Shown: positions 2,383 to 23,028 of the stretch, piece after piece
How positions within the stretch are numbered: the stretch's first letter is position 1
Layout: every line of letters starts with the position of its first letter
DNA from: a virus
Strand: one strand, 5' to 3'
Length of the DNA stretch: 23,810 nucleotides
Virus record (IMG/VR): IMGVR_UViG_3300032053_000523
Span: 1-23,810 of that record
Notes under the pieces: generated by a model
Databases searched by the model: none
What the model was told of the DNA's origin: nothing
Seen by the model: the letters and a program-made list of their open reading frames with translations, nothing else
Position numbers and translations under genes: made by a program

Positions 2383-4574
2383 TTCGGCTCCTTGGCGGGC
2401 TTTCCACCCCGCTCAAACGCGGTTGCCATTTGCATATCGGCTTGATGCTTCTGAGCCGAATGTTCCATTTCCTGGGCGAACTCTTGTCGCTTCACCTGAG
2501 ACTGAATAGTTGCCTCGTTTTGAGTCTGGGCAAGCTTCTGTTGGCCCAGATTCTGATCGACTGCCGCCCTCTGCTGGGCCACCTGCTGATCCACTGCCGC
2601 CTTCTGCTGCGTCTGGTGCAATTTGAGGGCGCCTTCCTGCTGCTTAAGTTGGAGCTTTTGCTGACCTTCAGCCTGCCCAAATTGAAGTTTCTGTTGAGAT
2701 AGCTTAGCATCCGATTCACCCTTCATTTCCATAAGTTTGAGCTGACCTTGTACCTTCTGTTCTTCGGGACTTGGTTGAGGTTGCTGGGGTTCAGCCAGCT
2801 TCTTCTGTAGCGCCGAGAACGTCCGATCAAGTTCACCTTCAAACTTCTTGCCGACTTTGAAGCCGGCCAGGGAGAACTGGAGCAATTGCATAAGGAATGG
2901 CCCCATAATGGGGTCACTATTCATAGTGGGGAGGATTTCCTTCAGGAAGTTAGTGATTGTACCCATGTACTCCATGCGGTCTTGCTTTTCCGCCTGGAAG
3001 TCTATATCGCTGAGGCTATCCGACTCTACCCTACAACGAAGGATAAATTCAGGTTGCTTGATTAACTGCTTCGCCTGTTCGATAATCTGCGGATCTTCAT
3101 TCATGAAATCACATTGCGCCAACTTACAAATTTCAGCAATGTCGAAATGCTTACGCATAATCTGCGCCTGAATATCGAACACCGACGAGCAGTACTGTAC
3201 TACATTCTTCTGCCGTTGTTGAATACGCATCGACGCATACGCTGTCTTGATCTTTTGGGCGCCCAGCGTTTCGCTTGCCTTAGTTGCGCCGCGAATGATA
3301 TCCGACATACCAGTGATTTCGTAAATCTGATTCTTAACGTCCTCGCGGTTCTTGGTAAGTTGGTCAATGGTGAGAACGACCATGTCGAGGGGTATCCAAT
3401 CAATGACCCCCTTGATCCCGCCTTTCTCCGCGAAAGCTGCCCACTGATCCACTGGGACCAGTTGGTTTTCAGCTGCGTTGGATAGGAGAGCTTGCACCTG
3501 CGAGCTCGCCTTGTCGTAAACGCCGGCCAGTCTGCAGGCGCGAACCAGTATGGAAATGCGGGTGTTGATGTCGTTGAGTTCTCGGTACTGATCCTTAGCG
3601 TAGTGGTAGTCGGGAATGGGGACGTATTGCCCATTTGAGACAGTAGATACGAGTGGAACTGGGCAAGGGAAGAAGTCGTCAAGTTCAAGGAAATCGTCCT
3701 TCTCACCTAGTAGTTTGTCAAGACCCTTGCTGAACCAAATCACCTTCTCGGAGGGCTTGTCCCAAATCTCGTACACGACCGCCTGCTGCATGATCATGTT
3801 CTTGACCTCTACCGAGTTGTCAGTTCGGTTAGCCTTGTAGTCCAGTGGCACTTCCTTACCAACCTTGCCGAAGCGTTTGACAAGTTGGTCTCGCGTCAGA
3901 TACGTCTTACGCGCGATCCACCGCAGCTCCTCGTATGAGCGACACGGGGACCAGAGCAAGTCCTCCCAGTACACGTATTCGTCCAGGATTTGCTCACTTA
4001 CCACTTCGTCGTACTCTAGCGTCTCAGCGAGAGACTGGGCCTCGGGTTCAACCTCCTCTTGCCCCGCAATATTCAGACCCGCGGTGGGGTCGAGTTCCGC
4101 CACTTTCTGAGGGCCATGGTGCTTTATGTCAGCGTCGTAGGTGTGCCACGAAATACCGACTCCAGGGACTAGCATATCCTGTACTACGCCCTTTAGCAAC
4201 TCGGCGGTGTGGAAATTACGATTGTTGTGACTAGAAAGGGCACGTTCTATGATCTCGCACGCGACTCGACCCATATCGTCCGTTGGGTCCTTGAATTCGC
4301 GATCCACAGTCGGCTGAGGAACCTGATTAATGAGCGAAGTCTGGAGAATGTTGACGTTCGCCGGAAATAGGTTGTACTTACGCTCAAAAGAGGCGTCAGT
4401 CAGGGAGCTATCGGCCTCTGCGGCACGAAACATCTTAACGATCTTGCGGCTTTTCTCTTGGAACCTTCTCAGTTCCTTCTCCGCAGCCGTAATTTCACCG
4501 CTCCAACGCTGATAACTGCCTCCGGTACCTTTCTCAGCCTCAGACAAGCTCTCAATTTTGGTAAAATCACTCAT
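2379..4574 (-). CDS. Portal protein (head-tail connector)
   Basis: Forms the dodecameric ring at the capsid vertex through which DNA enters and leaves. The protein has 731 residues, in the size range of P22/podovirus-type portals and larger than typical HK97-type ones. Recognisable parts are an N-terminal helical region (residues ~1-60), a segment DLLWSPCRSYEELRWIA followed by RKTYLTRDQLVKRFG (~205-235) that is typical of this family, and ITGMSDIIRGATKASETLGAQ (~425-445), which matches the conserved '(I)TGxSDIxRGxxxxxETxxAQ' portal signature. The last ~120 residues are an extremely Gln-rich heptad-like helix, compatible with a barrel extension. Upstream is GAGGAG at a good distance from ATG 4574. 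It overlaps the terminase gene by eight bases. Confidence 0.92.
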   Translation of the reverse strand: MSDFTKIESLSEAEKGTGGSYQRWSGEITAAEKELRRFQEKSRKIVKMFRAAEADSSLTDASFERKYNLFPANVNILQTSLINQVPQPTVDREFKDPTDDMGRVACEIIERALSSHNNRNFHTAELLKGVVQDMLVPGVGISWHTYDADIKHHGPQKVAELDPTAGLNIAGQEEVEPEAQSLAETLEYDEVVSEQILDEYVYWEDLLWSPCRSYEELRWIARKTYLTRDQLVKRFGKVGKEVPLDYKANRTDNSVEVKNMIMQQAVVYEIWDKPSEKVIWFSKGLDKLLGEKDDFLELDDFFPCPVPLVSTVSNGQYVPIPDYHYAKDQYRELNDINTRISILVRACRLAGVYDKASSQVQALLSNAAENQLVPVDQWAAFAEKGGIKGVIDWIPLDMVVLTIDQLTKNREDVKNQIYEITGMSDIIRGATKASETLGAQKIKTAYASMRIQQRQKNVVQYCSSVFDIQAQIMRKHFDIAEICKLAQCDFMNEDPQIIEQAKQLIKQPEFILRCRVESDSLSDIDFQAEKQDRMEYMGTITNFLKEILPTMNSDPIMGPFLMQLLQFSLAGFKVGKKFEGELDRTFSALQKKLAEPQQPQPSPEEQKVQGQLKLMEMKGESDAKLSQQKLQFGQAEGQQKLQLKQQEGALKLHQTQQKAAVDQQVAQQRAAVDQNLGQQKLAQTQNEATIQSQVKRQEFAQEMEHSAQKHQADMQMATAFERGGKPAKEPK

Positions 4575-5898
4575 AATTGCTCCTCAACGCTGGATTTGTA
4601 AGACGATTAGTGAACAAATCTTCCAGCGTGAAGGAATAATTCGCTCCTTCAGCCCCCTTGATATGGTCAGGGAGTATCAATTTGCTTTTGGCCGGCTGCA
4701 AATTGGTGAAGACCACGCCTAGATATCTGAAGGCGTCAGCAATGTGGGAAGACCAATCATGTACGGGTCGATCCCGGTAACAACCTAACTTGTCGTCCCA
4801 TTCTCTGCGGTACGACTTCATTGCTTCGATTGCCCCGCTTGCGAGCGGTCGGTTCCAATAAACAAACGGCAAGAGCTTACGTCCTGCCGAGATTCCGTCA
4901 CGTAACTTATGATCAGGCACGATTCGCGGACGATACCCACGACGAATCGTCTGCTCAACGATTGACCGTCCAGTTTGTAGATTCTTGGCCTTTGCATCAT
5001 GGGGGAGATAGACATCACGTACGTCGCGTGATTCCATTTCATCCAAATAAACGTCCCACTCTTGCTCGTTATTACTGTAGACTTCGTGGATGAGGATTCC
5101 TGAAGGGGCGTGCTGAAAGAAGATGAGAACAGTGTCGTCGGTGTATCCAAGGTCGGTGACAACGTCGAGGGGGAGGTTGGGATCGAGGTCAAATTCTTTA
5201 ATGCGACCTTCCTTCTCAGCGGACTCCATTTCAGCGCCATAAATCGCCCCTTTGAGCGCAGCGTCGAACGAGCACTCATATTCCTGCATGTAGTCCGACT
5301 CGTCCATCATTGAACGAATCAGAGCCAGCTCCTCTGCGGGAAGGATTCCTGATTCCGAAGCCTTCAACATCATCGTGAAGGCTTTGGGATCAGCTAGTGA
5401 CTTCCTGTACGAGTCGTAAAAGTGGTTCTTGCCCCTTGGAGTGCCCATTTTAACCAACCATCCCTGACGATCCGATAGGCAGGGCATGATGACCTGAGAC
5501 ACCATACTTGGTCGCATAAGAGGATATTCATCAAGGATAGCTCCGTCCAAGTAGATGCCACGAAGCGCGTCGGCATTCTCAGACCCAAGTAGATATATCT
5601 TGGCTTCATTCTTGAGGGTAACGCGGAGTTCTGACTCATGAGTCTGCTCAATTAGCGGCGCTGCGTACTCTTTGGTATATTCCCACGCAATCCGCTTGGC
5701 CATCTGATACGTGGGGGCAATATACGCCAGCTGTGGCCGCTTGAGTTGACATTCCAGCGCCCCAATGATGAGATCGTTGACGGCTGCGACGGTTTTGCCG
5801 GCCCGCCGATGACATACCATGTCCGAAAACCGTGCCTTTCGGTTGTGAAATGGTAGAAACGCGGCACGGGGCTCATATTTGAGCTCAATCTTGGCCAT
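4567..5898 (-). CDS. Terminase large subunit
   Basis: ATP-driven motor and nuclease that cuts concatemeric DNA and pumps it through the portal. The N-terminal ATPase has a Walker A variant HRRAGKT with Lys35, a Walker B ILDEY with Asp123-Glu124 and the coupling motif MGTPRGKNHFY. The C-terminal RNase H-like nuclease shows VVTDLGYTDDT (first Asp near 243), LPHDAKAKN near 305 and a final DWSSHIADAFRY containing the last acidic residue. The 443-residue length is normal. The ATG forms TAATG with the stop of the upstream gene, suggesting translational coupling, since there is no strong ribosome binding site. Neighbours are portal (downstream) and a probable small subunit two genes upstream. If the DNA is hypermodified, this enzyme must cut modified DNA, or cut where modification is absent. 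Confidence 0.95.
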   Translation of the reverse strand: MAKIELKYEPRAAFLPFHNRKARFSDMVCHRRAGKTVAAVNDLIIGALECQLKRPQLAYIAPTYQMAKRIAWEYTKEYAAPLIEQTHESELRVTLKNEAKIYLLGSENADALRGIYLDGAILDEYPLMRPSMVSQVIMPCLSDRQGWLVKMGTPRGKNHFYDSYRKSLADPKAFTMMLKASESGILPAEELALIRSMMDESDYMQEYECSFDAALKGAIYGAEMESAEKEGRIKEFDLDPNLPLDVVTDLGYTDDTVLIFFQHAPSGILIHEVYSNNEQEWDVYLDEMESRDVRDVYLPHDAKAKNLQTGRSIVEQTIRRGYRPRIVPDHKLRDGISAGRKLLPFVYWNRPLASGAIEAMKSYRREWDDKLGCYRDRPVHDWSSHIADAFRYLGVVFTNLQPAKSKLILPDHIKGAEGANYSFTLEDLFTNRLTNPALRSNYE

Positions 5899-6920
5899 TA
5901 CTTGGAGCCGGGTAGCCGGTCGTAGGGTATCATGTCCTCGTGAGCAAGGACCATCGCAGCTTGACGATGGTCATAAGACGGTGGGACTTGCTCTCTATAC
6001 GCCGGTCCACGCCTGAAACGTTCCTCAGTACCCCAAGCGGAACCCTCGCCCATGTTCTTACGGTAAATCCTGTATGCCTTCTCGTCAATATCTTTGGGTA
6101 TTACGCGGCCAGAAGAGCGCAATTGCTCCACTAGAGCGTTTTTAATCTGTTTATAACCCGCCCCAGGGTCAAATCCCTGTATATCAGCTACTGCGTGGTC
6201 AAATTCATGAAGTACAGGAGTCGTCAGAGATGCGTGTGACGGCCCCTCCGCATAAATCTCCTTGCTTCCAGGGTAAAAAGTGGCGCTAGACTTCGTCAAT
6301 GAAGGATCAATACGCAGAGTGGCGACGTAATCCTTCACTTCAGGGTAATTCGCATATAATTCGGGGTGGTGGTAAACCTGCCCAATTGGTCCATGATAAT
6401 CTTGTATCTCAGGTCGTATCTTATCCTGAGTAAAGGTTCGGTTCCCCATCTCATCATGGGGTTTTACGCGAGCCAGGGAATCGTCTATCTCCCACTTCAT
6501 AGGTTGGTGATTCTCCGGCCCACGCTCGACCTTGAGATCTCTCCAGACCTCGTGAGGTGTATAATTCGCCGATAACGCAGCCTCTCCTGCGGCCATGTCG
6601 GCAAGTGGGGCATTCTTGGCGAGGTCTCCAGCCATGATCTTCTGGACGGGGGCAGAATTACGCAGGCCTTTGACCAAGGCACCGAATGGGAGCATAGAGG
6701 CCGCACTGAGGGCTAGGCCGGTCTTGTCGCCCTCATCCCAACTGCGCTTCATGTCCCGAAGGGCCATGGCCTGGCCCACGCCGGGGATGAATCCCGCAGC
6801 AGTCTGAACGGCCATATCGCCCAGACTCTCATCCGGCTGGGCTTTTAGGGACGTATACTGGTCGTACTTCCTGCGAAGTAAGTCAGGTATGCCGACCAGG
6901 TCGTCTCTGATATCAGCCAC
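5898..6920 (-). CDS. Zincin-like (HExxH) phage protein
   Basis: Possible metallopeptidase carried in, or injected with, the virion. I place the start at GTG 6920 because GGAGG (6931-6927) lies six bases upstream; the frame also opens at TTG 6938, without that support. The resulting 340-residue protein has an N-terminal stretch rich in Gly/Ala hydrophobic helices (residues ~35-90, with AAGFIPGVGQAMAL and ALSAASMLPFGALV). A C-terminal domain holds VLHEFDHAVADIQGF, in which HEFDH (residues 238-242) fits the HExxH zinc motif. A Glu in NMGEG about 50 residues later could be the third ligand. The same LHExxHAxxxxEGF plus GExxA layout is known in 'large polyvalent protein' domains of phages. Peptidase activity is inference. 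The position between small and large terminase genes is unusual for such a domain. Confidence 0.6.
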   Translation of the reverse strand: MADIRDDLVGIPDLLRRKYDQYTSLKAQPDESLGDMAVQTAAGFIPGVGQAMALRDMKRSWDEGDKTGLALSAASMLPFGALVKGLRNSAPVQKIMAGDLAKNAPLADMAAGEAALSANYTPHEVWRDLKVERGPENHQPMKWEIDDSLARVKPHDEMGNRTFTQDKIRPEIQDYHGPIGQVYHHPELYANYPEVKDYVATLRIDPSLTKSSATFYPGSKEIYAEGPSHASLTTPVLHEFDHAVADIQGFDPGAGYKQIKNALVEQLRSSGRVIPKDIDEKAYRIYRKNMGEGSAWGTEERFRRGPAYREQVPPSYDHRQAAMVLAHEDMIPYDRLPGSK

Positions 6921-7296
6921 GACTGGCCTCCACGTCAATAATCTGCATTGGAGCGTTACCTGATGTGTCTCGGGCGTTCAGCCAACTCAGTTCGATCTTG
7001 ATAGCTCCACCGTCCAACCCAGTAACCTGAGCCGGTATGAGTTTCGAGTAGAGTTGGTAGAACTTGTCGGGGTTTTGATGAGCCCAATTGGCGAGTCGGG
7101 GGACACCGCCGATGAGCTCAAAGGCGTATTGGAACTGAAGCCGCACGTTGCGGGTTCGTGTGTATAATGGCAGTTTGGGAGCGTTCGCAAGGGCATTCAG
7201 GTTCTCCTCAACTTCCTGCATAGACGGCGTAATGGGGCCGTCATCGATCTCAGGATTCAACGATTGCAGTGCTGCTACTTGTGTCTCGGCAGTCAC
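6913..7296 (-). CDS. Probable terminase small subunit
   Basis: Product of 127 residues starting at GTG 7296, which overlaps the previous stop (GTGA). The core contains RLQFQYAFELIGGVPRLANW and then AHQNPDKFYQLYSKLIPAQV. A helical segment of the form 'ELIGGxxxLxxWAxxNxxxFYxLYxxLxP' is common in short phage proteins encoded upstream of the large terminase, some annotated as small terminase subunits. There is no obvious helix-turn-helix that I can define with confidence. If correct, it would recognise the packaging start and stimulate the large subunit. It overlaps the following gene by eight bases. An alternative is a conserved head-operon protein of unknown role. Confidence 0.5.
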   Translation of the reverse strand: MTAETQVAALQSLNPEIDDGPITPSMQEVEENLNALANAPKLPLYTRTRNVRLQFQYAFELIGGVPRLANWAHQNPDKFYQLYSKLIPAQVTGLDGGAIKIELSWLNARDTSGNAPMQIIDVEASRG

Positions 7297-7507: not shown

Positions 7508-7716
7508 GTGTTACCTGAGTTAGGCGGGTTGCCGTTGGTGAAGAATGTACTCGGGCCTACACTGCCTTCACCGGGGGCGAATCTGGTCACATTCCCTATG
7601 CTACGAGCGGCAATGTAGGCTGCATATCTGTCATTTGTGATCGTGGCATATGCTTCACTCTGAGCTTGGGACGACTCCCAGAGCTGAACTCCTAGTGGTG
7701 CAGTGGGGTCGCTCAT
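7504..7716 (-). CDS. Small hypothetical protein, first gene of the head operon
   Basis: An open frame of 70 residues (MSDPTAPLGVQLWES...) with a helical N-terminal half and a Gly/Pro/Asn-rich tail that ends GNPPNSGNT. I do not recognise a family. It is the first frame after the divergent region, and its stop lies next to the duplicated 40-bp segment. No clear ribosome binding site precedes ATG 7716. It could be a minor head protein or a chance frame; the absence of any better frame here and its direction favour a real gene. Confidence 0.45.
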   Translation of the reverse strand: MSDPTAPLGVQLWESSQAQSEAYATITNDRYAAYIAARSIGNVTRFAPGEGSVGPSTFFTNGNPPNSGNT

Positions 7717-7756
7717 ATGTGCTGGCGGGGGCGAATGGGGTAGGTGGGTAGTCTAT

Positions 7757-7785
7757 ACTCTACTCCTATTTTATGATTCAGTCTA
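7757..7785 (-). promoter_or_regulatory. Weak candidate promoter for the head operon
   Basis: TAGACT (7785-7780), 17-base spacer, TAGAGT (7762-7757) on the minus strand, 41 bases before the first minus-strand gene. The -35 hexamer matches those at 2036 and 12113; the -10 box is poor. A TATAAT at 7816-7811 is an alternative -10 box without a recognisable -35 box. Confidence 0.3.
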
Positions 7786-7877
7786 GGGATTTCTACTGGA
7801 AAATTCGGGCATTATATGAGACTCTGACGCATGATTCCTGATGCTTGGAACCCCGGTAAACCTCAGTTCTTACTGCT

Positions 7878-7918
7878 ACAGCTTCCAAATCGTATGCTTA
7901 CAGTCTCCAAATCGTGTG
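7878..7918 (+). repeat. Two 19-bp direct repeats, period 22
   Basis: ACAGCTTCCAAATCGTATG (7878-7896) and ACAGTCTCCAAATCGTGTG (7900-7918) agree at 16 of 19 positions. The 22-bp period is about two helical turns. The second copy covers the end of the -35 box and the spacer of the promoter at 7897-7925, which is what an operator pair would look like. Confidence 0.7.
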
Positions 7919-7925
7919 GTATAAT
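7897..7925 (+). promoter_or_regulatory. Rightward sigma70-like promoter
   Basis: CTTACA (7897-7902), 17-base spacer, perfect TATAAT (7920-7925). It would transcribe rightward through the palindrome-rich region to the genes from 8609. Its spacer is filled by one of two direct repeats, so it is probably regulated. Confidence 0.55.
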
Positions 7926-7988
7926 CGGAGGGCGGCCCATACTCTCACCGACCCCACCCCACGACCGCATACACCCTGTGGCGAGCGA

Positions 7989-8055
7989 CGCTCGCTACGC
8001 TCGCCGGAAAAGGCGGAAAGTGCGCTAGCGAGTCGCTCGCTACGCTCGCCGGAAA
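7989..8055 (+). repeat. 22-bp direct repeats, period 45
   Basis: The 22 bases at 7989-8010 (beginning CGCTCGCTACGCTCG and ending CCGGAAA) recur exactly at 8034-8055. The repeats lie next to GCGAGCGACGCTCGC (7981-7995), an inverted repeat with seven-base arms. They mark the left border of the TG/CA-depleted zone. Confidence 0.85.
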
Positions 8056-8072
8056 GTGCGAGGAAAGGGCGG

Positions 8073-8094
8073 GCGAAGTAAGTGCTTACTTCGC
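8073..8094. repeat. Palindromic site 1 (AGTAAG-TG-CTTACT)
   Basis: The core AGTAAGTGCTTACT is at 8077-8090. Here the arms extend to ten bases, GCGAAGTAAG and CTTACTTCGC, around the central TG. One of four sites of the form AGTAAG-YR-CTTACT. Confidence 0.85.
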
Positions 8095-8100
8095 TCGTGG

Positions 8101-8159
8101 TTAGTAAGTACTTACTCCTATACCCGACTAACGGGGAGGGGTATAGAACGAACGTTCGG
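8101..8159 (+). repeat. Regulatory module copy A
   Basis: Contains TTAGTAAG-TA-CTTACT (perfect 14-bp palindrome at 8103-8116), CTATACCCGACTAAC (8118-8132), then GGGTATAG (8139-8146), which pairs with CTATACCC (8118-8125), and GAACGAACGTTC (8146-8157). Copy B at 8370-8430 repeats the order and spacing: TTAGTAAG to TATAGAACG is 41 bases in both. Confidence 0.8.
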
Positions 8160-8165
8160 CACCTC

Positions 8166-8302
8166 GACTAAGGGACTAGGGGACCTAAGGGACCGATTCC
8201 TTATCCGGCTCCTAAAGGGGTATATTTTAGTTGCCTAGGGGTATACCTTAATTCTCGGAGCCTATAGGCTCTTTAATCCCTTAGTCCCTTAGTCCCTTAG
8301 TC
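8166..8302. repeat. 26-bp imperfect inverted repeat with tandem CCCTTAGT units
   Basis: The arm at 8166-8192 (GACTAAGGGACTAGGGGACC..., 27 bases) pairs with 8277-8302 with one bulge and one mismatch, enclosing about 84 bases. The right arm is three tandem copies of CCCTTAGT (8278-8301). The loop holds the perfect palindrome GAGCCTATAGGCTC (8258-8271). A shorter TTAGTCCCTTAGTCC copy is at 8432-8446. Confidence 0.8.
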
Positions 8303-8344
8303 CCCGGGCGTAGCTCCTAAGTTACTCCCTCCCGTTATCCCTTA

Positions 8345-8358
8345 AGTAAGCACTTACT
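8345..8358. repeat. Palindromic site 3 (AGTAAG-CA-CTTACT)
   Basis: Third AGTAAG-YR-CTTACT site. Its right half is also the left arm of an 11-bp stem, CTTACTAACTT (8353-8363) with AAGTTAGTAAG (8367-8377) around a three-base loop. That right arm runs into site 4, so alternative foldings are possible. Confidence 0.85.
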
Positions 8359-8369
8359 AACTTGCTAAG

Positions 8370-8430
8370 TTAGTAAGCGCTTACTTCTATACCCGACTAA
8401 CTTACTCGACTATAGAACGTTCGTTCTCGG
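8370..8430 (+). repeat. Regulatory module copy B
   Basis: Contains AGTAAGCGCTTACT (8372-8385, perfect palindrome), CTATACCCGACTAAC and GAACGTTCGTTC (8415-8426), which is the GAACGAACGTTC element in inverted orientation. The first 32 bases match copy A except at three positions. Confidence 0.8.
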
Positions 8431-8461
8431 GTTAGTCCCTTAGTCCGAGCGGCCTAAAATC

Positions 8462-8489
8462 GAACGAACGTTCGACGAACGAACGTTCG
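8462..8489 (+). repeat. Tandem GAACGAACGTTCG elements
   Basis: Two exact copies of GAACGAACGTTCG at 8462-8474 and 8477-8489, period 15. Each contains the palindrome CGAACGTTCG. With 8146-8158 and the inverted copy at 8415-8426 this makes four. Confidence 0.85.
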
Positions 8490-8608
8490 GTGCCGACTTT
8501 CCGACGAACGGTATAGGCTATCTACTCGACTCGGAGTAGACTATCTATATCGACCTCCGATGCCGGGAAATCCCTCCCGTAGCGCCTAGGTCGAGCGAAA
8601 GGAAAAAA

Positions 8609-8989
8609 ATGTTACTACGATTCCCTAATCCCGTACCGGGAGCGCGCGAGTCTTTCCGACTTACGAAAGACGCGGAAAAGTGCTACCCGAAAGGAAAGCG
8701 GGCGTACCCGATAACCGCCCTCGTAAACGGAACCCCGACCGAAATAATGGTTACTAGCTCCGCTTCTTGGAGCGCGGAATCGACTACCGGGGCTAACGGG
8801 TGGATTAAGATCGACGGGAAAGTTTTTTGGTTCCTTTTCGACCCCGGGTTTATCCCGCTCGACGGGCTAGACTTCCTACTCGAAACCGGCCCCGGCCTCC
8901 CGAACCCTAAGAGGGAGCCGAAAGACCCCGTTAAGGAAGCCGCTAGAACCGCCGCGTGTTCCGTTACGCTACGGGCGAGAGCCGCCTAA
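8609..8989 (+). CDS. Hypothetical protein with a CA-free, TG-minimal gene
   Basis: Product of 126 residues of unknown function, first gene of the rightward arm. AAAGGA lies five bases before ATG 8609. No signal peptide or membrane helix is evident. It is a paralogue of the protein at 11445: shared segments include PIT.....G.P.E..VTSS, NGW, W.LF, DG..F and NP.R.PK.P..EA.R.AA. The coding sequence contains no CA dinucleotide, and its only seven TGs are in two ATG, three TGG and two Cys codons, where TG is unavoidable. The protein accordingly has no His or Gln. Codon use is otherwise rich in TCG, CGA, CCG and ACG. A terminator-like hairpin follows 18 bases after the stop. Confidence 0.85.
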   Translation: MLLRFPNPVPGARESFRLTKDAEKCYPKGKRAYPITALVNGTPTEIMVTSSASWSAESTTGANGWIKIDGKVFWFLFDPGFIPLDGLDFLLETGPGLPNPKREPKDPVKEAARTAACSVTLRARAA

Positions 8990-9006
8990 GCCTAGGGCGA
9001 AACCGC

Positions 9007-9033
9007 ACCCTAGCCCGAAAGGGCTAGGGTTTT
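9007..9033 (+). terminator. Terminator-like hairpin after the 8609 gene
   Basis: ACCCTAGCCC (9007-9016), GAAA loop, GGGCTAGGGT (9021-9030), then TTTT overlapping the stem end. A perfect ten-base stem with a stable GNRA loop; the T-run is short, so termination may be partial and allow read-through into the next genes. Confidence 0.7.
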
Positions 9034-9099
9034 CGCACGTCTATAGGAATCGCACCTTAACCGGCCCGATCCGACCTAACTCCAATTAAAGGCTAACCC

Positions 9100-9441
9100 A
9101 TGAATACGAATCAAGAAGATCTGAACCCCAAGAACGAAAACCCCAAGAACGAGAGCATCGCGACCCGTCAGTGGAATATCGCCTCCGCCACGAAGCCGCA
9201 TAACCCCAACGAGTTTATGGAGAACGTTCGCTCTATGTTCAAGAGCTACGGGTTTACGGTGAACGCTATCGCCATCGTCCCCGGTCCCGGGTGTCGCAAC
9301 TACGGTCTTGAGCTATCCGGCCCCCACGACGAGCAACAAAGGATCATCGAGCAACTAACCTTCGCGATGCAGCCGGGAAAGTACTCCGAGATCCATAACG
9401 ACCCCGCCTTGGTATTCGGCGAGTTCACCTACGAGGAATAG
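9100..9441 (+). CDS. Small hypothetical protein
   Basis: Product of 113 residues, not recognised. The start is Asn/Glu/Lys-rich with a short repeat (NPKNENPKNE), followed by a compact part with GFTVNAIAIVPGPGC, RNYGLELSG and alternating beta and alpha propensity; the end is acidic (FTYEE). No membrane segment. AAAGG lies eight bases before ATG 9100. Dinucleotide use returns to normal here, so the TG/CA avoidance ends before this gene. It begins a run of small genes separated by hairpin-bearing spacers, probably transcribed early. Confidence 0.75.
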   Translation: MNTNQEDLNPKNENPKNESIATRQWNIASATKPHNPNEFMENVRSMFKSYGFTVNAIAIVPGPGCRNYGLELSGPHDEQQRIIEQLTFAMQPGKYSEIHNDPALVFGEFTYEE

Positions 9442-9461
9442 CCTCAACCTCGAGGATGTCG

Positions 9462-9498
9462 CGGTAAGGTCGCAAGACCTTACCGGGGAATCCTCCCC
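9462..9498 (+). promoter_or_regulatory. Hairpin module before the 9513 gene
   Basis: CGGTAAGGTC (9462-9471), GCAA tetraloop, GACCTTACCG (9476-9485), then GGGGA-ATCC-TCCCC (9485-9498). The two stems share one base. No T-run follows, so this is not a standard terminator; TTAGGAG and the start codon follow immediately. Confidence 0.75.
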
Positions 9499-9512
9499 AC
9501 TTAGGAGAATAC

Positions 9513-9815
9513 ATGAATACGAGAGGCATAGAAGTAGGGACGCCGATCATGTGGATACAAAGTGATAATACGCTCACGTTCGGTACGGTGACGAGAATGG
9601 GGCTACAAGCTGGTATCGGCGTTTTGTGGACCGACGGTCGTCACAAGCCGGAGGATTGCATATACGACGCTTTCTGCTTCCCAGCTAAGTACCAAGCAGA
9701 ACTCCAGCAAATCCTAGACGAGCGGGCGAAGCTCAAGAAAGCGTATGATGACTCGGCTAAGTTGCTATACGAGTTCTCCAATAAAGTCGTGAAGGACGCG
9801 CTACGCACCGATTAG
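9513..9815 (+). CDS. Small hypothetical protein
   Basis: Product of 100 residues, not recognised. The N-terminal ~55 residues have short beta-strand-like pieces (GTPIMWIQ, LTFGTVTRMG, GIGVLWTDGR), reminiscent of a small SH3-like or beta-barrel fold. The rest is a long charged helix (AELQQILDERAKLKKAYDDS) suited to a coiled coil. TTAGGAG precedes ATG 9513 at a good distance and directly follows the hairpin module. Function unknown. Confidence 0.75.
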   Translation: MNTRGIEVGTPIMWIQSDNTLTFGTVTRMGLQAGIGVLWTDGRHKPEDCIYDAFCFPAKYQAELQQILDERAKLKKAYDDSAKLLYEFSNKVVKDALRTD

Positions 9816-9858
9816 CAGCGAAAGCAGCTAGACGGTCCCGACTAGACGAGCTATACTA

Positions 9859-9890
9859 GAGACTAGTCCCTAATTCAAGGGGCTAGTCTC
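9859..9890 (+). promoter_or_regulatory. Hairpin before the 9912 gene
   Basis: GAGACTAGTCCC (9859-9870) pairs with GGGGCTAGTCTC (9879-9890) over 12 positions with one G-U pair and an eight-base loop. The GGGGA/TCCCC second stem seen at the other three sites is missing. No T-run follows. Confidence 0.7.
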
Positions 9891-9911
9891 GCCCAACTTA
9901 GGAGTATCTAT

Positions 9912-10160
9912 ATGAACACCAAGGCTAATACCAAGTACTATCTTCAGGAAGGCTATACGCCTACCAACGTAGTCGCTTACAAGTCCGGCGAAAATTGGTT
10001 CGGCCCCGTTCTCACGCTTACGAAACGCATCTTTCTCGACGAGAAGCTCCACGAATACAAGATAAACGGGGAGAGGGTCAAGAACGAGCTTCTCAGCGAG
10101 TACGAAGCTAACTCTTGGCTCGCGGCTCGGGCCAAGGTACCCGACTACGCAACTTGGTAG
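9912..10160 (+). CDS. Small hypothetical protein
   Basis: Product of 82 residues, soluble, not recognised. It contains YYLQEGYTPTNVVAYKSG and a helical C-terminal half that ends in Trp. TTAGGAG lies seven to nine bases before ATG 9912. It is flanked on both sides by spacer hairpins. Probably one of the small accessory proteins common in early regions of phages; no specific function can be assigned. Confidence 0.75.
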   Translation: MNTKANTKYYLQEGYTPTNVVAYKSGENWFGPVLTLTKRIFLDEKLHEYKINGERVKNELLSEYEANSWLAARAKVPDYATW

Positions 10161-10164
10161 GCGT

Positions 10165-10204
10165 CCCGGTAAGCCTCTCAGGAGGCTTACCGGGGAATCT
10201 CCCC
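10165..10204 (+). promoter_or_regulatory. Hairpin module before the 10227 gene
   Basis: CCCGGTAAGCCTC (10165-10177) pairs with GAGGCTTACCGGG (10182-10194) as a perfect 13-bp stem with loop TCAG. GGGGA-ATC-TCCCC (10192-10204) follows and overlaps its base by three bases, so the two stems compete. No T-run. Confidence 0.75.
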
Positions 10205-10226
10205 CACAAAGAACTAGGAGCTAGCC

Positions 10227-10700
10227 ATGGAAGTCACCGAAAGAAAGTGCCCTACTTACAAGGAAAGGCGGGAGCGTCTCATCGAGAACGTAGTCTCAGG
10301 ATACTCCGAGCCATTTTCTCGTGCCCTAGCGGAGGTTATGATGCTCCCGCCCGAGTACGACCTGGACCCCGACTATGCTGAAGGACTAGCTACGGCGTTG
10401 GCCTACTCTAGGCTCATGCGGGGAAGGCACAACAATAGCGCCGCCTCGATGTTCCATAGTATCCAACTCGAGACTCTCCAGAAATGGAAGGACGCCATTG
10501 ACGCCGAGCGTAAGCGCAGGATAGACGTTATTCGCAAGTATAACCCCGCCTTCAAGTTTACTACTGAGCCGTATAGCGATGAGCATATCGGTAAGGCGGC
10601 GGCTCAAGTCCTCGAGGTTGAGGAGATTAAACAACGAGCGGACGAGGCCTATTACCAGGCTATCTACGAGTTCAGGAAGTCCCTCGGTACCAACTTCTAA
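10227..10700 (+). CDS. Hypothetical helical protein
   Basis: Product of 157 residues, mostly alpha-helical and charged, not recognised. Its features are an N-terminal KCPTYKERRERLIENVVSGY, a central LEVEEIKQRADEAYYQAIYE-type helix near the C-terminus and RKYNPAFKF in between. TAGGAG lies six bases before ATG 10227. It has a single Cys and no membrane segment. A minus-strand frame of 204 codons overlaps its end (10386-11000) but lacks a ribosome binding site and opposes the operon. Confidence 0.75.
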   Translation: MEVTERKCPTYKERRERLIENVVSGYSEPFSRALAEVMMLPPEYDLDPDYAEGLATALAYSRLMRGRHNNSAASMFHSIQLETLQKWKDAIDAERKRRIDVIRKYNPAFKFTTEPYSDEHIGKAAAQVLEVEEIKQRADEAYYQAIYEFRKSLGTNF

Positions 10701-11444: not shown

Positions 11445-12035
11445 ATGGGTAAGAAGGACAAGAAGTTCGATGCGCCGCAAGGCGAAACGCAAACCTTGAC
11501 CGAGGCCGATGTCGGAACGATTCACGTTGGCCCCGAATCTACCGACGGTGCCCCGCCCGAACTGGCCGATAAGGTCAAGGCCGCTCCGGTGAGGCCGACG
11601 TATCACCTGGTTCTCAGCACTCCCGACTTGACGGGTCGCGTGGCGTACCGTTTCGGTAAGGACAAGGCGATGCCCAAGAAGGCGCCGCGTATCCCGATCA
11701 CGCTCGACGGCGTGCCGGGCGAGATGGCCGTAACGTCCTCGGGTGGTTATTCGGAACTGGTTGGCTACAACGGCTGGTTGTACAACAAGGACGGCGACTC
11801 GGGCTGGATCCTGTTCTCGGACGGCGCGAACCCCAGCGATCCCGCGCAATTCCCGGACGGTATTCAATTTACGACGACCGAAGGTCTGGGCCCCGTGAAT
11901 CCGCTTCGCCTGCCGAAGAACCCCGAAGGTGAGGCTAACCGCCGCGCGGCTGCTGCAGCCTCCGCTCTGAAGCGTAAGGCTGAAAAGGAAGCGGCAGTTG
12001 TCGAACAAGCCGCTGCCGAACAAGTCACGGCCTAA
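11445..12035 (+). CDS. Hypothetical protein, paralogue of the 8609 product
   Basis: Product of 196 residues, unknown function. I use ATG 11445 because AAAGGA lies six bases upstream; a GTG in frame at 11430 overlaps that site. The N-terminus is Lys-rich (MGKKDKKFDAPQ), the central ~100 residues form the domain shared with the 8609 protein (RIPITLDGVPGEMAVTSSGG, NGW, SGWILFSDG, PLRLPKNPEGEAN), and the C-terminus is a long Ala/Lys/Glu helix. The gene has its own promoter, leader hairpin and strong terminator, so it is a single-gene unit that is probably highly expressed. Codon use favours C- and G-ending codons with abundant CA and TG, in sharp contrast to its paralogue. Confidence 0.85.
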   Translation: MGKKDKKFDAPQGETQTLTEADVGTIHVGPESTDGAPPELADKVKAAPVRPTYHLVLSTPDLTGRVAYRFGKDKAMPKKAPRIPITLDGVPGEMAVTSSGGYSELVGYNGWLYNKDGDSGWILFSDGANPSDPAQFPDGIQFTTTEGLGPVNPLRLPKNPEGEANRRAAAAASALKRKAEKEAAVVEQAAAEQVTA

Positions 12036-19991: not shown

Positions 19992-20287
19992 AACTTGAAA
20001 AGGAGATTGAGTTAGATGTATCAGATTACGCCAAGCATCAGAAAGACTGCTTGGTACTCAAACTCAATGTCTGGGGTAGGATTGGTTGGCCCGACCGACT
20101 CTATCTTCACTTTAAGGGCAAGGTACTGTTCATAGAGTTCAAACAACCTGGTGAAAAGCCTAAGAGATTACAGGAGTTTATACATGAAAAGTTACGACGA
20201 TATGGATTTAGAATTGAAGTGGTCGACAACGTCCGCGACGGGAGGGCAATTATCGACGACTTTACCTCAGACAATTCGCACGTTTGA
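19979..20287 (+). CDS. VRR-NUC domain nuclease
   Basis: Probable structure-specific nuclease. The frame is open from ATG 19946, but that start lies deep in the previous gene without a ribosome binding site; GTG 19979, with AGAGG about 11 bases upstream, is my preferred but uncertain start, giving 102 residues. GWPDRLYLHFKGKVLFIEFK holds the nuclease signature (G-x-PD then E-x-K). KPKRLQEFIHEKLRRYGFRI, ending VEVVDNVRDG, is the typical VRR-NUC C-terminal half. Stand-alone VRR-NUC proteins are common in phage replication modules. Its last 104 bases overlap the next gene, much more than usual here. Confidence 0.85.
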   Translation: MSELKLEKEIELDVSDYAKHQKDCLVLKLNVWGRIGWPDRLYLHFKGKVLFIEFKQPGEKPKRLQEFIHEKLRRYGFRIEVVDNVRDGRAIIDDFTSDNSHV

Positions 20288-21050
20288 GGAGTTTGCCAAG
20301 GTAGATGTATATACGGGGGACATTGATCCCGTGTATTGGGCCATCTACCGTGCCCGTGAAACTATGAGTCATGGCTGGGCTACGCGATTCAGTGTGGCCA
20401 TGCTAGCCTACTACCATACGGGTACGGCAGCCAAAGCCGCCGATCTAGAGGGTATCCACTTCTGGGACTACTTGGAGAGTATCTTCGAAGGTACAGTTAC
20501 TCCGAGGGCGGCTGAGCGACGGCACTTCCGTGGGGAGGGTGGTCGCAAGACGCTCGCGTCCATGAGACAGTCTAGCCCGAACCCGGACAGATTTTACGAT
20601 AACATACCTCGCAACTACCGGGGCATCATGCGGTACTGTGAGTCCAAGTTCTACGGATTCGGCCCATACTTCCAGCTGAAGATCGCTGACTATATGGACA
20701 GATGCCTAGGTATACCCCTAGACGACATGATAGGACTGAGTACTAACCTACCCACCCTACCGGCGAAGGCTGCGGTGCTTCTATATGTAAATCACTCTGC
20801 CCCCGACGCTTTCAATAAGGCATGTGAGCGAGTCTACGTGCTGAACCTTCTCGCCCCGCCACTTTTCGACCGCCCCGTTGGACCAGCCGAGGTCGAGACC
20901 ATCCTATGTGACTGGAAACGGGCCAAGTATGGCACCCATTGGGTGGGAGATGACGTACTCGACAAGCGTACTTCTCTAGGTACCCATCCAATGGCCGATT
21001 TGATGCCCCCGACGTTCGACAAGGGTACGTTCAAGTTGGACCTGCTATGA
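20184..21050 (+). CDS. Amino acid:DNA transferase-like thymine hypermodification protein
   Basis: Predicted to join an amino-acid or amine group to an activated 5-hydroxymethyl-dU in phage DNA. The protein has 288 residues from ATG 20184, which has AGGAG (20172-20176) seven bases upstream; an ATG 33 bases earlier lacks this. Segments DIDPVYWAIYRARE, GWATRFSVAMLAYYHTGTAA, AERRHFRGEGG, SPNPDRFYDNIP and FGPYFQLKIADYMDRCLG match the family first predicted as 'alpha-glutamyl/putrescinyl-thymine pyrophosphorylase clade 2' and later linked to amino acid:DNA transfer (recalled, not searched). Which group is transferred cannot be told. The kinase and the partner family at 22456 and 23404 support the assignment. 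Its start lies inside the VRR-NUC gene. Confidence 0.82.
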   Translation: MKSYDDMDLELKWSTTSATGGQLSTTLPQTIRTFEEFAKVDVYTGDIDPVYWAIYRARETMSHGWATRFSVAMLAYYHTGTAAKAADLEGIHFWDYLESIFEGTVTPRAAERRHFRGEGGRKTLASMRQSSPNPDRFYDNIPRNYRGIMRYCESKFYGFGPYFQLKIADYMDRCLGIPLDDMIGLSTNLPTLPAKAAVLLYVNHSAPDAFNKACERVYVLNLLAPPLFDRPVGPAEVETILCDWKRAKYGTHWVGDDVLDKRTSLGTHPMADLMPPTFDKGTFKLDLL

Positions 21051-22459
21051 GTGAAGAATGGGTCCCCAAGAAGTACCAGGTTGAATCCATCAAATGGGGG
21101 ATGGAGCACGCCAATTGCGGCTTGCTCCTAGACCCAGGGATGGGGAAGACAAGCGCAACTCTGACCCTAGGAGACCTCCTCATTCAGAGGAATGCCATCG
21201 GTCGCATCCTGATCATCGTCCCCATACGGCCTATGTATAAGGTCTGGCCGGACGAGATCAGGAAGTGGAACCATACGAAGCATCTTAGCTACACCATTCT
21301 CCACGGTGACGACAAGGACGCGAAGCTCAATGAGGTTTCTAACATCTACCTACTCAATCCGGAGGGGCTGAAATGGTTCATTGCAGCTGGTGGTATGGAA
21401 AAGCTCTCTCCAGATATGCTGGTCGTGGACGAATCGACGAAATTCAAGGACTATTCGACAGCACGCTTCAAGCTCTTAAAGCCACACTTGCCGCGTTTCA
21501 AGAGGAGACTGATCCTGACTGGCGAACCAGTACCGAATGGGTACATGGACCTGTTCGGGCAAAGTTACATTGTCGATCAGGGCAATGCGCTTGGGAGATT
21601 TATCACCCACTATCGGGCTCAGTTCTTCTATCAATCAGGGTTTGGCGGGTACAATTACACCCTGAGACAAGGGGCGGACAAGGAGATACAGGAGAAATTG
21701 CGGGGCACGATGATGCGATTGGCGGCGGAGGATCATCTGGAGATGCCGGACCTCATAACTGACGACATCATGATCGAGCTTGATCCGAAGTCCCGTCAGA
21801 TTTACAAGCAATTCGAGGATGACTTTCTAGCAGAGGTGGGCGATGATACTATCATGTCGGTTAATGCGGCCGCGGTTGGTAATAAGTGCCGACAAGTCGC
21901 TAACGGGGGTGTTTACGACGAGACGCATTTCGCTCACCCTATACACGACCTCAAAACGGCAGCGCTGGTCGATCTTGTTGAACAGCTCCAAGGCAACCCT
22001 CTCCTCGTTGGCTATGAATTCCAGCACGATCTTGAGAGGATCAAGAGAGTTTTCCCCAACGCCCCATGTCTCACGGGTATGTCGGGGAAAAGGCTGGATG
22101 TTGTCGTGGACGGTTTTAACGCTGGAACAATACCGGTCCTCCTGGGCCACCCTGCTTCGGCGGGGCACGGACTAAACCTACAGGGTAGCTGTTACCATAT
22201 GTGCTGGTACGGCCTACCTTGGGACTACGACCTCTACAAGCAAATGATCGCTCGGGTCTGGAGACAGGGTCAGAAGTCCAATCGCGTATTCGTCCATCGT
22301 ATCCTGGCCGACAGGACGCTGGATTCTACGGTGTCAAGAACGCTCCTTCAGAAAGAGCGGACGGCAGACGCCTTCTCTAACGCTATCAAAGCCTACAAAA
22401 CTGAAGTAGTACGCGACCAATCCCGCGAAGCAGCGGCTATCAAGGAGATTATTAAGTGA
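21047..22459 (+). CDS. SNF2-type superfamily 2 helicase/translocase
   Basis: ATP-dependent DNA translocase, probably for recombination, repair or access to modified DNA. The protein has 470 residues. The core starts at once: YQVESIKWGM (Q-motif like), DPGMGKTSATL with Walker A Lys34, LVVDESTKF (motif II, ~127) and LTGEPVPNGYMDLFGQ (motif III). The second half has HPASAGHGLNLQG (motif V-like) and ARVWRQGQKSNRVFVHRI (motif VI, the SNF2 signature). No accessory domains are present. ATG overlaps the stop of the upstream modification gene and its own stop overlaps the kinase GTG, so it is embedded in the hypermodification cluster. Confidence 0.93.
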   Translation: MSEEWVPKKYQVESIKWGMEHANCGLLLDPGMGKTSATLTLGDLLIQRNAIGRILIIVPIRPMYKVWPDEIRKWNHTKHLSYTILHGDDKDAKLNEVSNIYLLNPEGLKWFIAAGGMEKLSPDMLVVDESTKFKDYSTARFKLLKPHLPRFKRRLILTGEPVPNGYMDLFGQSYIVDQGNALGRFITHYRAQFFYQSGFGGYNYTLRQGADKEIQEKLRGTMMRLAAEDHLEMPDLITDDIMIELDPKSRQIYKQFEDDFLAEVGDDTIMSVNAAAVGNKCRQVANGGVYDETHFAHPIHDLKTAALVDLVEQLQGNPLLVGYEFQHDLERIKRVFPNAPCLTGMSGKRLDVVVDGFNAGTIPVLLGHPASAGHGLNLQGSCYHMCWYGLPWDYDLYKQMIARVWRQGQKSNRVFVHRILADRTLDSTVSRTLLQKERTADAFSNAIKAYKTEVVRDQSREAAAIKEIIK

Positions 22460-23028
22460 TTATCAAGATACACGGTACTAGTGGGAGCGGTAAGACTACC
22501 ATCATTCGGGAGCTCATGAAGATGAGTGATCCCGTCCCGGCAGAGTGCGTCGACCTCAAGGAGGGTAAGGTTGAAGCTATGATCCTACACCTCCCCGGCG
22601 TTATGAAGCCGGTCGTTGCCCTTGGACCCTACGGTAAGGCTCACTGCGGAGGATTAGATGCGATCTCTGGTACTGATGTCCACGCTGCTCTACTCCATCG
22701 TTATGTCACCTGGGGTCATGTCATATACGAAGGCCTGCTTGGAAGCGAGTGCTATGGCGCGATGGGGATTGCGTCCGAGCGATATCATGGTGACCACCTG
22801 TTCGCCTTCCTTGATACTCCCATCGAAATCTGTATCGACCGGGTCAAGCAGAGGCGTCTTGATGCAGGGAATACCAAGCCCCTGAACGAGGCCAATACGC
22901 GGGGCAGAGTGGCTAAGATTAATCGCCTGAAGTACCGGCTGAACAATGAGTTCGACCGATGGGTGTTCGACCTAGATCACCTCCGAGCCACCCAGCAGAT
23001 TTACGAACTACTGAGGAACGCGACATGA
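22456..23028 (+). CDS. P-loop kinase of the thymine hypermodification cluster
   Basis: Predicted phosphotransferase acting on a 5-hydroxymethyl pyrimidine in nucleotide or DNA form. The protein has 190 residues from GTG 22456, with AAGGAG eight bases upstream and a GTGA overlap with the helicase stop. Walker A is IHGTSGSGKTT (Lys13); HVIYEGLLGS is a Walker B-like segment near residue 95; FLDTPIEICIDRVKQRR (~116-132) resembles the LID and Arg-finger part of nucleoside/nucleotide kinases; the end DLDHLRATQQIYELL is also kinase-like. Similar short P-loop kinases accompany thymine-hypermodification genes in phages. The substrate is inferred from that context. Confidence 0.78.
   Translation: MIIKIHGTSGSGKTTIIRELMKMSDPVPAECVDLKEGKVEAMILHLPGVMKPVVALGPYGKAHCGGLDAISGTDVHAALLHRYVTWGHVIYEGLLGSECYGAMGIASERYHGDHLFAFLDTPIEICIDRVKQRRLDAGNTKPLNEANTRGRVAKINRLKYRLNNEFDRWVFDLDHLRATQQIYELLRNAT

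Follow-up and report, generated by a model that had tools for sequence, protein, structure and literature searches.

Why should a gene of 126 codons avoid every TG and CA that its codons and their junctions allow it to avoid? The locus that raises this question lies in a 23,810-nt stretch of viral DNA (positions 1 to 23,810 of IMG/VR record IMGVR_UViG_3300032053_000523; hereafter the window), the features of which are collected in Table 1. A recount bore out what an earlier note on this DNA had reported: the reading frame at 8609-8989, hereafter the zone gene, encodes no His or Gln and contains no CA, and its seven TG are exactly those imposed by two Met, three Trp and two Cys codons. When the protein was kept fixed and codons were drawn from the table of the remaining phage genes, the absence of avoidable CA had a probability of 1.4e-9, that of avoidable TG 6e-9 and that of both 1.2e-18, and none of 5000 synonymous reshuffles was as low in CA or TG (15.9 and 22.0 expected, respectively). 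Because zero CA and seven TG are thus not reproduced under the phage's own codon table (P about 1e-18), chance and codon bias are rejected as explanations; the absence of His and Gln by itself has a probability of 1.5e-4. A paralogue in the same window provides an internal control. The zone protein matches no Pfam or PHROG family, and its AlphaFold model (pLDDT 92.9) has no significant fold match in PDB or BFVD.

The depletion extends beyond the frame to which the earlier note had confined it: the claim stands for the gene itself, but its limits were too narrow, as about 600 bp of non-coding DNA 5' of the gene are depleted as well. Its bounds are about 7,990 and 9,006, the latter adjoining a terminator hairpin. 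Across this island, TG and CA number 17 per 1,001 bp (observed/expected 0.14), compared with an observed/expected ratio of 0.93 in the remaining contig, that is, no genome-wide depletion. The longest stretch of the contig without CA, 655 nt at 8351-9006, has a chance expectation (E) of about 1e-13. TC and GA, the other context reported for the kinase discussed below, are not depleted, and the GC content of the island (0.54) is close to the contig mean, TA and CG being elevated where TG and CA vanish. The island is located between the leftward terminase module and the rightward replication/modification module. An assembly artefact is rejected because the same zone is present in an independently assembled contig (L002) that is 98.5% identical to the window; the two differ at 67 positions over 4,765 bp, only one of which falls within 7600-8899, and over the final 900 bp they agree in their numbers of TG and CA. 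Of the four palindromes in the island's non-coding leader, two (8077-8092 and 8345-8360) hold at their centre two of the few TG/CA of that leader; in the remaining pair, TA and CG occupy this place. Further along the contig (9100-10700), coding-strand TG is scarce in small rightward genes and in the DNA separating them, with CA near normal; the stretch at 9912-10160 contains 4 TG against 14.3 expected.

Table 1. Coordinates of the features of the window discussed in the text.
Feature	Position	Strand	Remarks
Terminase large subunit	4567..5898	-	leftward module
Conserved gene on the terminase side of the island	6913..7296	-	small-terminase position (by position only)
Best sigma70-like promoter, CTTACA-17-TATAAT	7897..7925	+	TG before second hexamer; upstream edge of the island; putative role
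TG/CA-free island (non-coding leader and gene, ending at terminator)	7972..9006	.	17 TG/CA in 7995-8995
Four GTAAGYRCTTAC-form palindromes, non-coding island	8077-8092, 8103-8118, 8345-8360, 8372-8387	.	
Repeated palindromic elements GAACGAACGTTCG / CGAACGAACGTTCG	8143..8489	.	
CCGACGAACGGT element, just 5' of zone gene in relatives	8501..8512	+	exact match in relatives
Shine-Dalgarno-like AAAGGA	8598..8603	+	read from sequence
Zone gene	8609..8989	+	126 aa; small beta-rich protein
Terminator hairpin, GAAA loop, TTTT	9007..9034	+	10-bp stem, -26.4 kcal/mol, z -3.9; island limit
Zone-gene paralogue (internal control)	11445..12035	+	TG 31 (expected 30, ordinary); CA 22 (expected 32, near-ordinary)
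Amino acid:DNA transferase (ADDT)	20151..21050	+	PF18724, E 2.8e-6, 27.7 bits (cut-off 26.2)
5-hmdU DNA kinase (HMUDK)	22456..23028	+	PF18748, E 1.6e-6, 28.2 bits (cut-off 27)

A terminase search for relatives yielded 51 loci, and the relatives were searched for windows poor in TG/CA and for the longest stretches lacking CA or TG. The same island was found 5' of the terminase genes in ten related IMG/VR contigs (G001, G004, G005, G008, G009, G010, G012, L030, L042 and, in a weaker form, G003). An unbiased scan pointed to one place per genome, with runs of 821 nt in G001, 680 nt in G005, 532 nt in G004 and 1451 nt in G012 (E 4e-30), and likewise to one place in G008, G009, G010 and L042. In seven zones, the observed/expected ratio was 0.01-0.14 for TG/CA and 1.01-1.33 for TC/GA. 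There were no islands among 111 more distant terminase loci, and no relatives were recovered with the primase as query. The frame described in the earlier note is accordingly one part of a larger unit, a gene with its flank, which is common to related phages and, as discussed below, tied to a thymine-hypermodification pathway. In one further phage (G007), a zone-type gene (L095:5203-5646) lacks His and Gln, yet has 11 CA, and is accompanied by two copies of the upstream element; the constraint has possibly been relaxed there.

The zone genes of the relatives contain 0-2 CA, compared with 10-24 expected, and 0-1 His and Gln codons, compared with 8-15 in paralogues outside the zone in the same genomes, the TG and CA counts of which are roughly ordinary. 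Together with the depletion of non-coding DNA, this upholds the proposal of the earlier note that a pressure at the level of DNA, acting across codon junctions, has shaped both synonymous choice and amino acid content. The zone genes belong to several sequence families without clear mutual kinship, and it is therefore the locus that is constrained rather than one protein; since, in addition, non-coding parts are purged, the depletion is not a protein effect. Selection continues to act on it: pairwise comparisons of G008, G009, G010 and L042 show 29-91 nucleotide differences and not a single new TG or CA, although about 33% of random substitutions would be expected to create one. Assuming random substitutions, the probability of this outcome is roughly 1e-5 for 29 differences and below 1e-14 for 88.

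This record favours selection over a local mutational bias. Removal of TG and CA by mutation, either through CpA to TpA deamination as in RIP or through a mutagenic modified thymine, fits the rise of TA and CG in the zone; however, GC is unchanged, the remaining genome is untouched, the boundaries match terminators, and both amino acids and functional start codons have been replaced, so that this explanation, already disfavoured, appears extremely improbable. The island shares the loss of CA and TG with RIP-like depletion in fungal repeats, but differs from it in showing no GC loss, not being associated with repeats, retaining coding function and residing in a phage.

The clade with the island is one that carries genes for thymine modification. 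The window encodes an HMUDK and an ADDT, both with scores that barely exceed the Pfam cut-offs (Table 1), and the ADDT has relatives in phages M6 and phiW-14. The dUMP hydroxymethylase (thymidylate-synthase-like) is not on the truncated window contig and is present in G003, G004, G005, G008, G010, G011, G013 and G020. HMUDK was detected in every large close relative (G003, G004, G005, G008, G010, G011 and G013), accompanied by the thymidylate-synthase-like gene, and in one of the 20 distant records. Among records of at least 23 kb, it is present in six of the seven with a zone and absent from 13 of the 16 without (Fisher P = 0.005, uncorrected for the kinship of the records, and with most of the zone-negative ones examined only around the terminase). 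G011 carries HMUDK and no island; from G013 and G020 the relevant stretch is missing. The window kinase also matches phrog_800, labelled 'terminase small subunit', a name likewise given to M6 gp54 (L005:41685-42248) and several other kinase records, which is probably a misannotation.

M6, ViI and phiW-14 are thymidine-hypermodifying phages with HMUDK and ADDT homologues like those of the window phage, and their hypermodified thymine apparently precedes G or C (PMC6449724, PMC7653180). The TG and TC targets are indicated by resistant restriction sites and by kinase-treated SP8 DNA, on which enzymes with TG or TC in their sites are blocked (PMC6449724, PMC7653180). If the kinase of the window phage is TG-specific, a stretch free of TG and CA would therefore be unmodifiable on either strand. 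Such modification has consequences for transcription: phosphorylation of 5-hmdU templates by 5-HMUDK reduces transcription by Escherichia coli RNA polymerase to 37% of that on the unmodified template (PMC6457204), and T7 RNA polymerase is inhibited by bulky or charged modifications on the template strand but copes better with those on the non-template strand (PMC11550810).

The anatomy of the island in the relatives is that of a transcription unit, namely a gene followed by a strong hairpin. A sigma70-like promoter precedes the gene in G001 and G005 and can be read by eye in the sequences of L030 and G004; in most phages the gene is oriented toward the replication/modification module. In G005, coding-strand CA is absent between 29849, which lies 5' of the promoter, and 30529, one base past the T-run of the terminator, and in G004 the CA-free run begins within the promoter spacer and stops at the terminator region. 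TG is normal in both genes (39 against 30 expected in G005, 26 in G004); as a CA on the coding strand is a TG on the template strand, these two phages have been purged on the template strand only. Both strands are purged in G000, G001, G008-G010, G012 and L042; the zone gene of G008, for example, contains one TG (its ATG) and one CA, and encodes a protein with a single His, the structural model of which was left out owing to its low confidence (pLDDT 40).

The coincidence of the CA-free run with roughly the transcribed unit, and the consistent absence of CA from the coding strand, would also be expected if UG and CA were avoided in the transcript as an escape from an endoribonuclease. Selection on the RNA is nevertheless very improbable, given that G004 and G005 have normal UG counts, that upstream DNA is purged on both strands in G001 and G012, and that the island is found in a clade with genes for the modification of thymine in DNA.

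The extent of the constraint is most apparent in G001, where the zone gene begins with ATT; an ordinary paralogue, to which it is 48% identical, starts with ATG. An in-frame stop lies four codons upstream, with GAG AGA TCT alone between the two and GGAG in front, so that no ATG, GTG or TTG start is possible; the rare codon is apparently explained by the fact that each of the three usual ones includes TG. The infC gene of E. coli likewise starts with the rare AUU, and the ATT of G001 differs in apparently being forced by the TG in these codons. After this gene, a second short TG-free open frame without a usual start codon lies between two hairpins (L072:15060-15208).

The promoters show a similar pattern. 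An exact CCGACGAACGGT occurs 5' of the zone gene in G000, G001, G003, G004, G005, G007 and L030 and at none of the 111 distant terminase loci; it was rejected as an element specific to these phages, as it is found together with TTGAC in promoters of other phages without HMUDK matches. Of 44 similarly built promoters from other phages, 33 have TTGAC; in the zone phages, few as they are, it is replaced by the TG-free forms TTTACT (L030, G004, G005) and TTAACC (G001). No clear promoter directly follows the element at 8501 in the window phage. TG-free runs near CCGACGAACGGT-type promoters in L275, L289 and L295 were set aside as repetitive coding sequence. On one 55-kb phage contig (IMGVR_UViG_3300022305_000867; L276, L278, L284, L286 and L290), about ten promoters follow the pattern CGACGAACGGT-TTNAC-TATAAT, which suggests a promoter class common to several phages.

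That the island invariably lies 5' of the terminase genes, where two modules meet, and contains palindromes and repeats raises the alternative that it is a site for DNA-protein recognition, either a replication origin or a terminase pac/cos site, at which binding or cutting requires DNA free of bulky thymines. M6-like phages offer a partial parallel. No gene-length TG/CA-free island was found in the cultured hypermodified phages examined, M6, YuA, CN2, Ab18, Epa5, Bhz59, MK-13 and phiW-14; the first five show mild dips only and the last three none. The dips, at 3251-3650 and 29401-29850 in M6 (L005) and at 401-850 in YuA, are non-coding, with observed/expected ratios of about 0.5-0.6; of the two dip regions in M6-like phages, one lies 5' of the terminase genes, as a recognition site would predict, and in YuA one contains an annotated promoter. 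Kinship of the window phage with this group (Mesyanzhinovviridae) was not apparent from the portal protein, which matches Mx8/Mx9, BUCT555 and others at 25-35% and none in the M6 group. Recognition sites are usually far below 500-1,450 bp, however, and would have no need for whole genes, altered start codons or a gene-length strand asymmetry that stops at terminators, which makes this alternative unlikely.

We consider it likely that the island is a transcription unit kept free of hypermodifiable thymines, which allows RNA polymerase to read the fully modified virion DNA, and that its gene is probably immediate-early. According to this model, the 5-hmdU DNA kinase would phosphorylate 5-hydroxymethyl-dU in the TG context, and the transferase would subsequently attach a bulky group; the resulting bulky thymines would hinder RNA polymerase, which is the proposed reason for the purge of one unit. 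Located where the terminase and replication/modification modules diverge, and purged of TG on both strands, or in some relatives on the template strand alone, the unit would stay unmodified and readable. Its gene would most likely be transcribed before any other once the fully modified genome has entered the cell, its small protein presumably starting the remaining phage programme. The same anatomy would serve a unit devoted to late transcription, with the gene still being expressed once post-replicative modification covers all progeny DNA, and the paralogues with ordinary TG in the same genomes could then act in the other phase. In most phages, though, the gene faces the replication/modification module and has a sigma70-like promoter, and a late role is decidedly unlikely. 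Protection of the template strand does not explain the zone-type genes of L044 and L015, which are depleted in coding-strand TG instead, or the window genes at about 9,100-10,700, and in the several phages with both strands purged the depletion goes beyond what a model based on the template alone requires.

Selection against a short DNA word is familiar from restriction-site avoidance in phage genomes; here, by contrast, the word is a dinucleotide that is avoided within a single transcription unit only, and the pressure appears to come from the modification pathway of the phage itself. We found no earlier report of such islands in the open-access literature, to which the search was limited. 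The probable picture is one of self-exemption, whereby TG-modifying phages keep one unit free of TG and transcribable at the price of the ATG start and of almost every His or Gln codon. To give up a start codon and two amino acids is an unusually strong constraint of DNA on protein. If the proposed explanation is true, islands of this kind would bear on how the first genes of a phage are read from DNA full of bulky bases: they would flag, from sequence alone, the gene that needs to be read first, would reveal the target dinucleotide of the kinase and the relevant strand, and would provide a test system.
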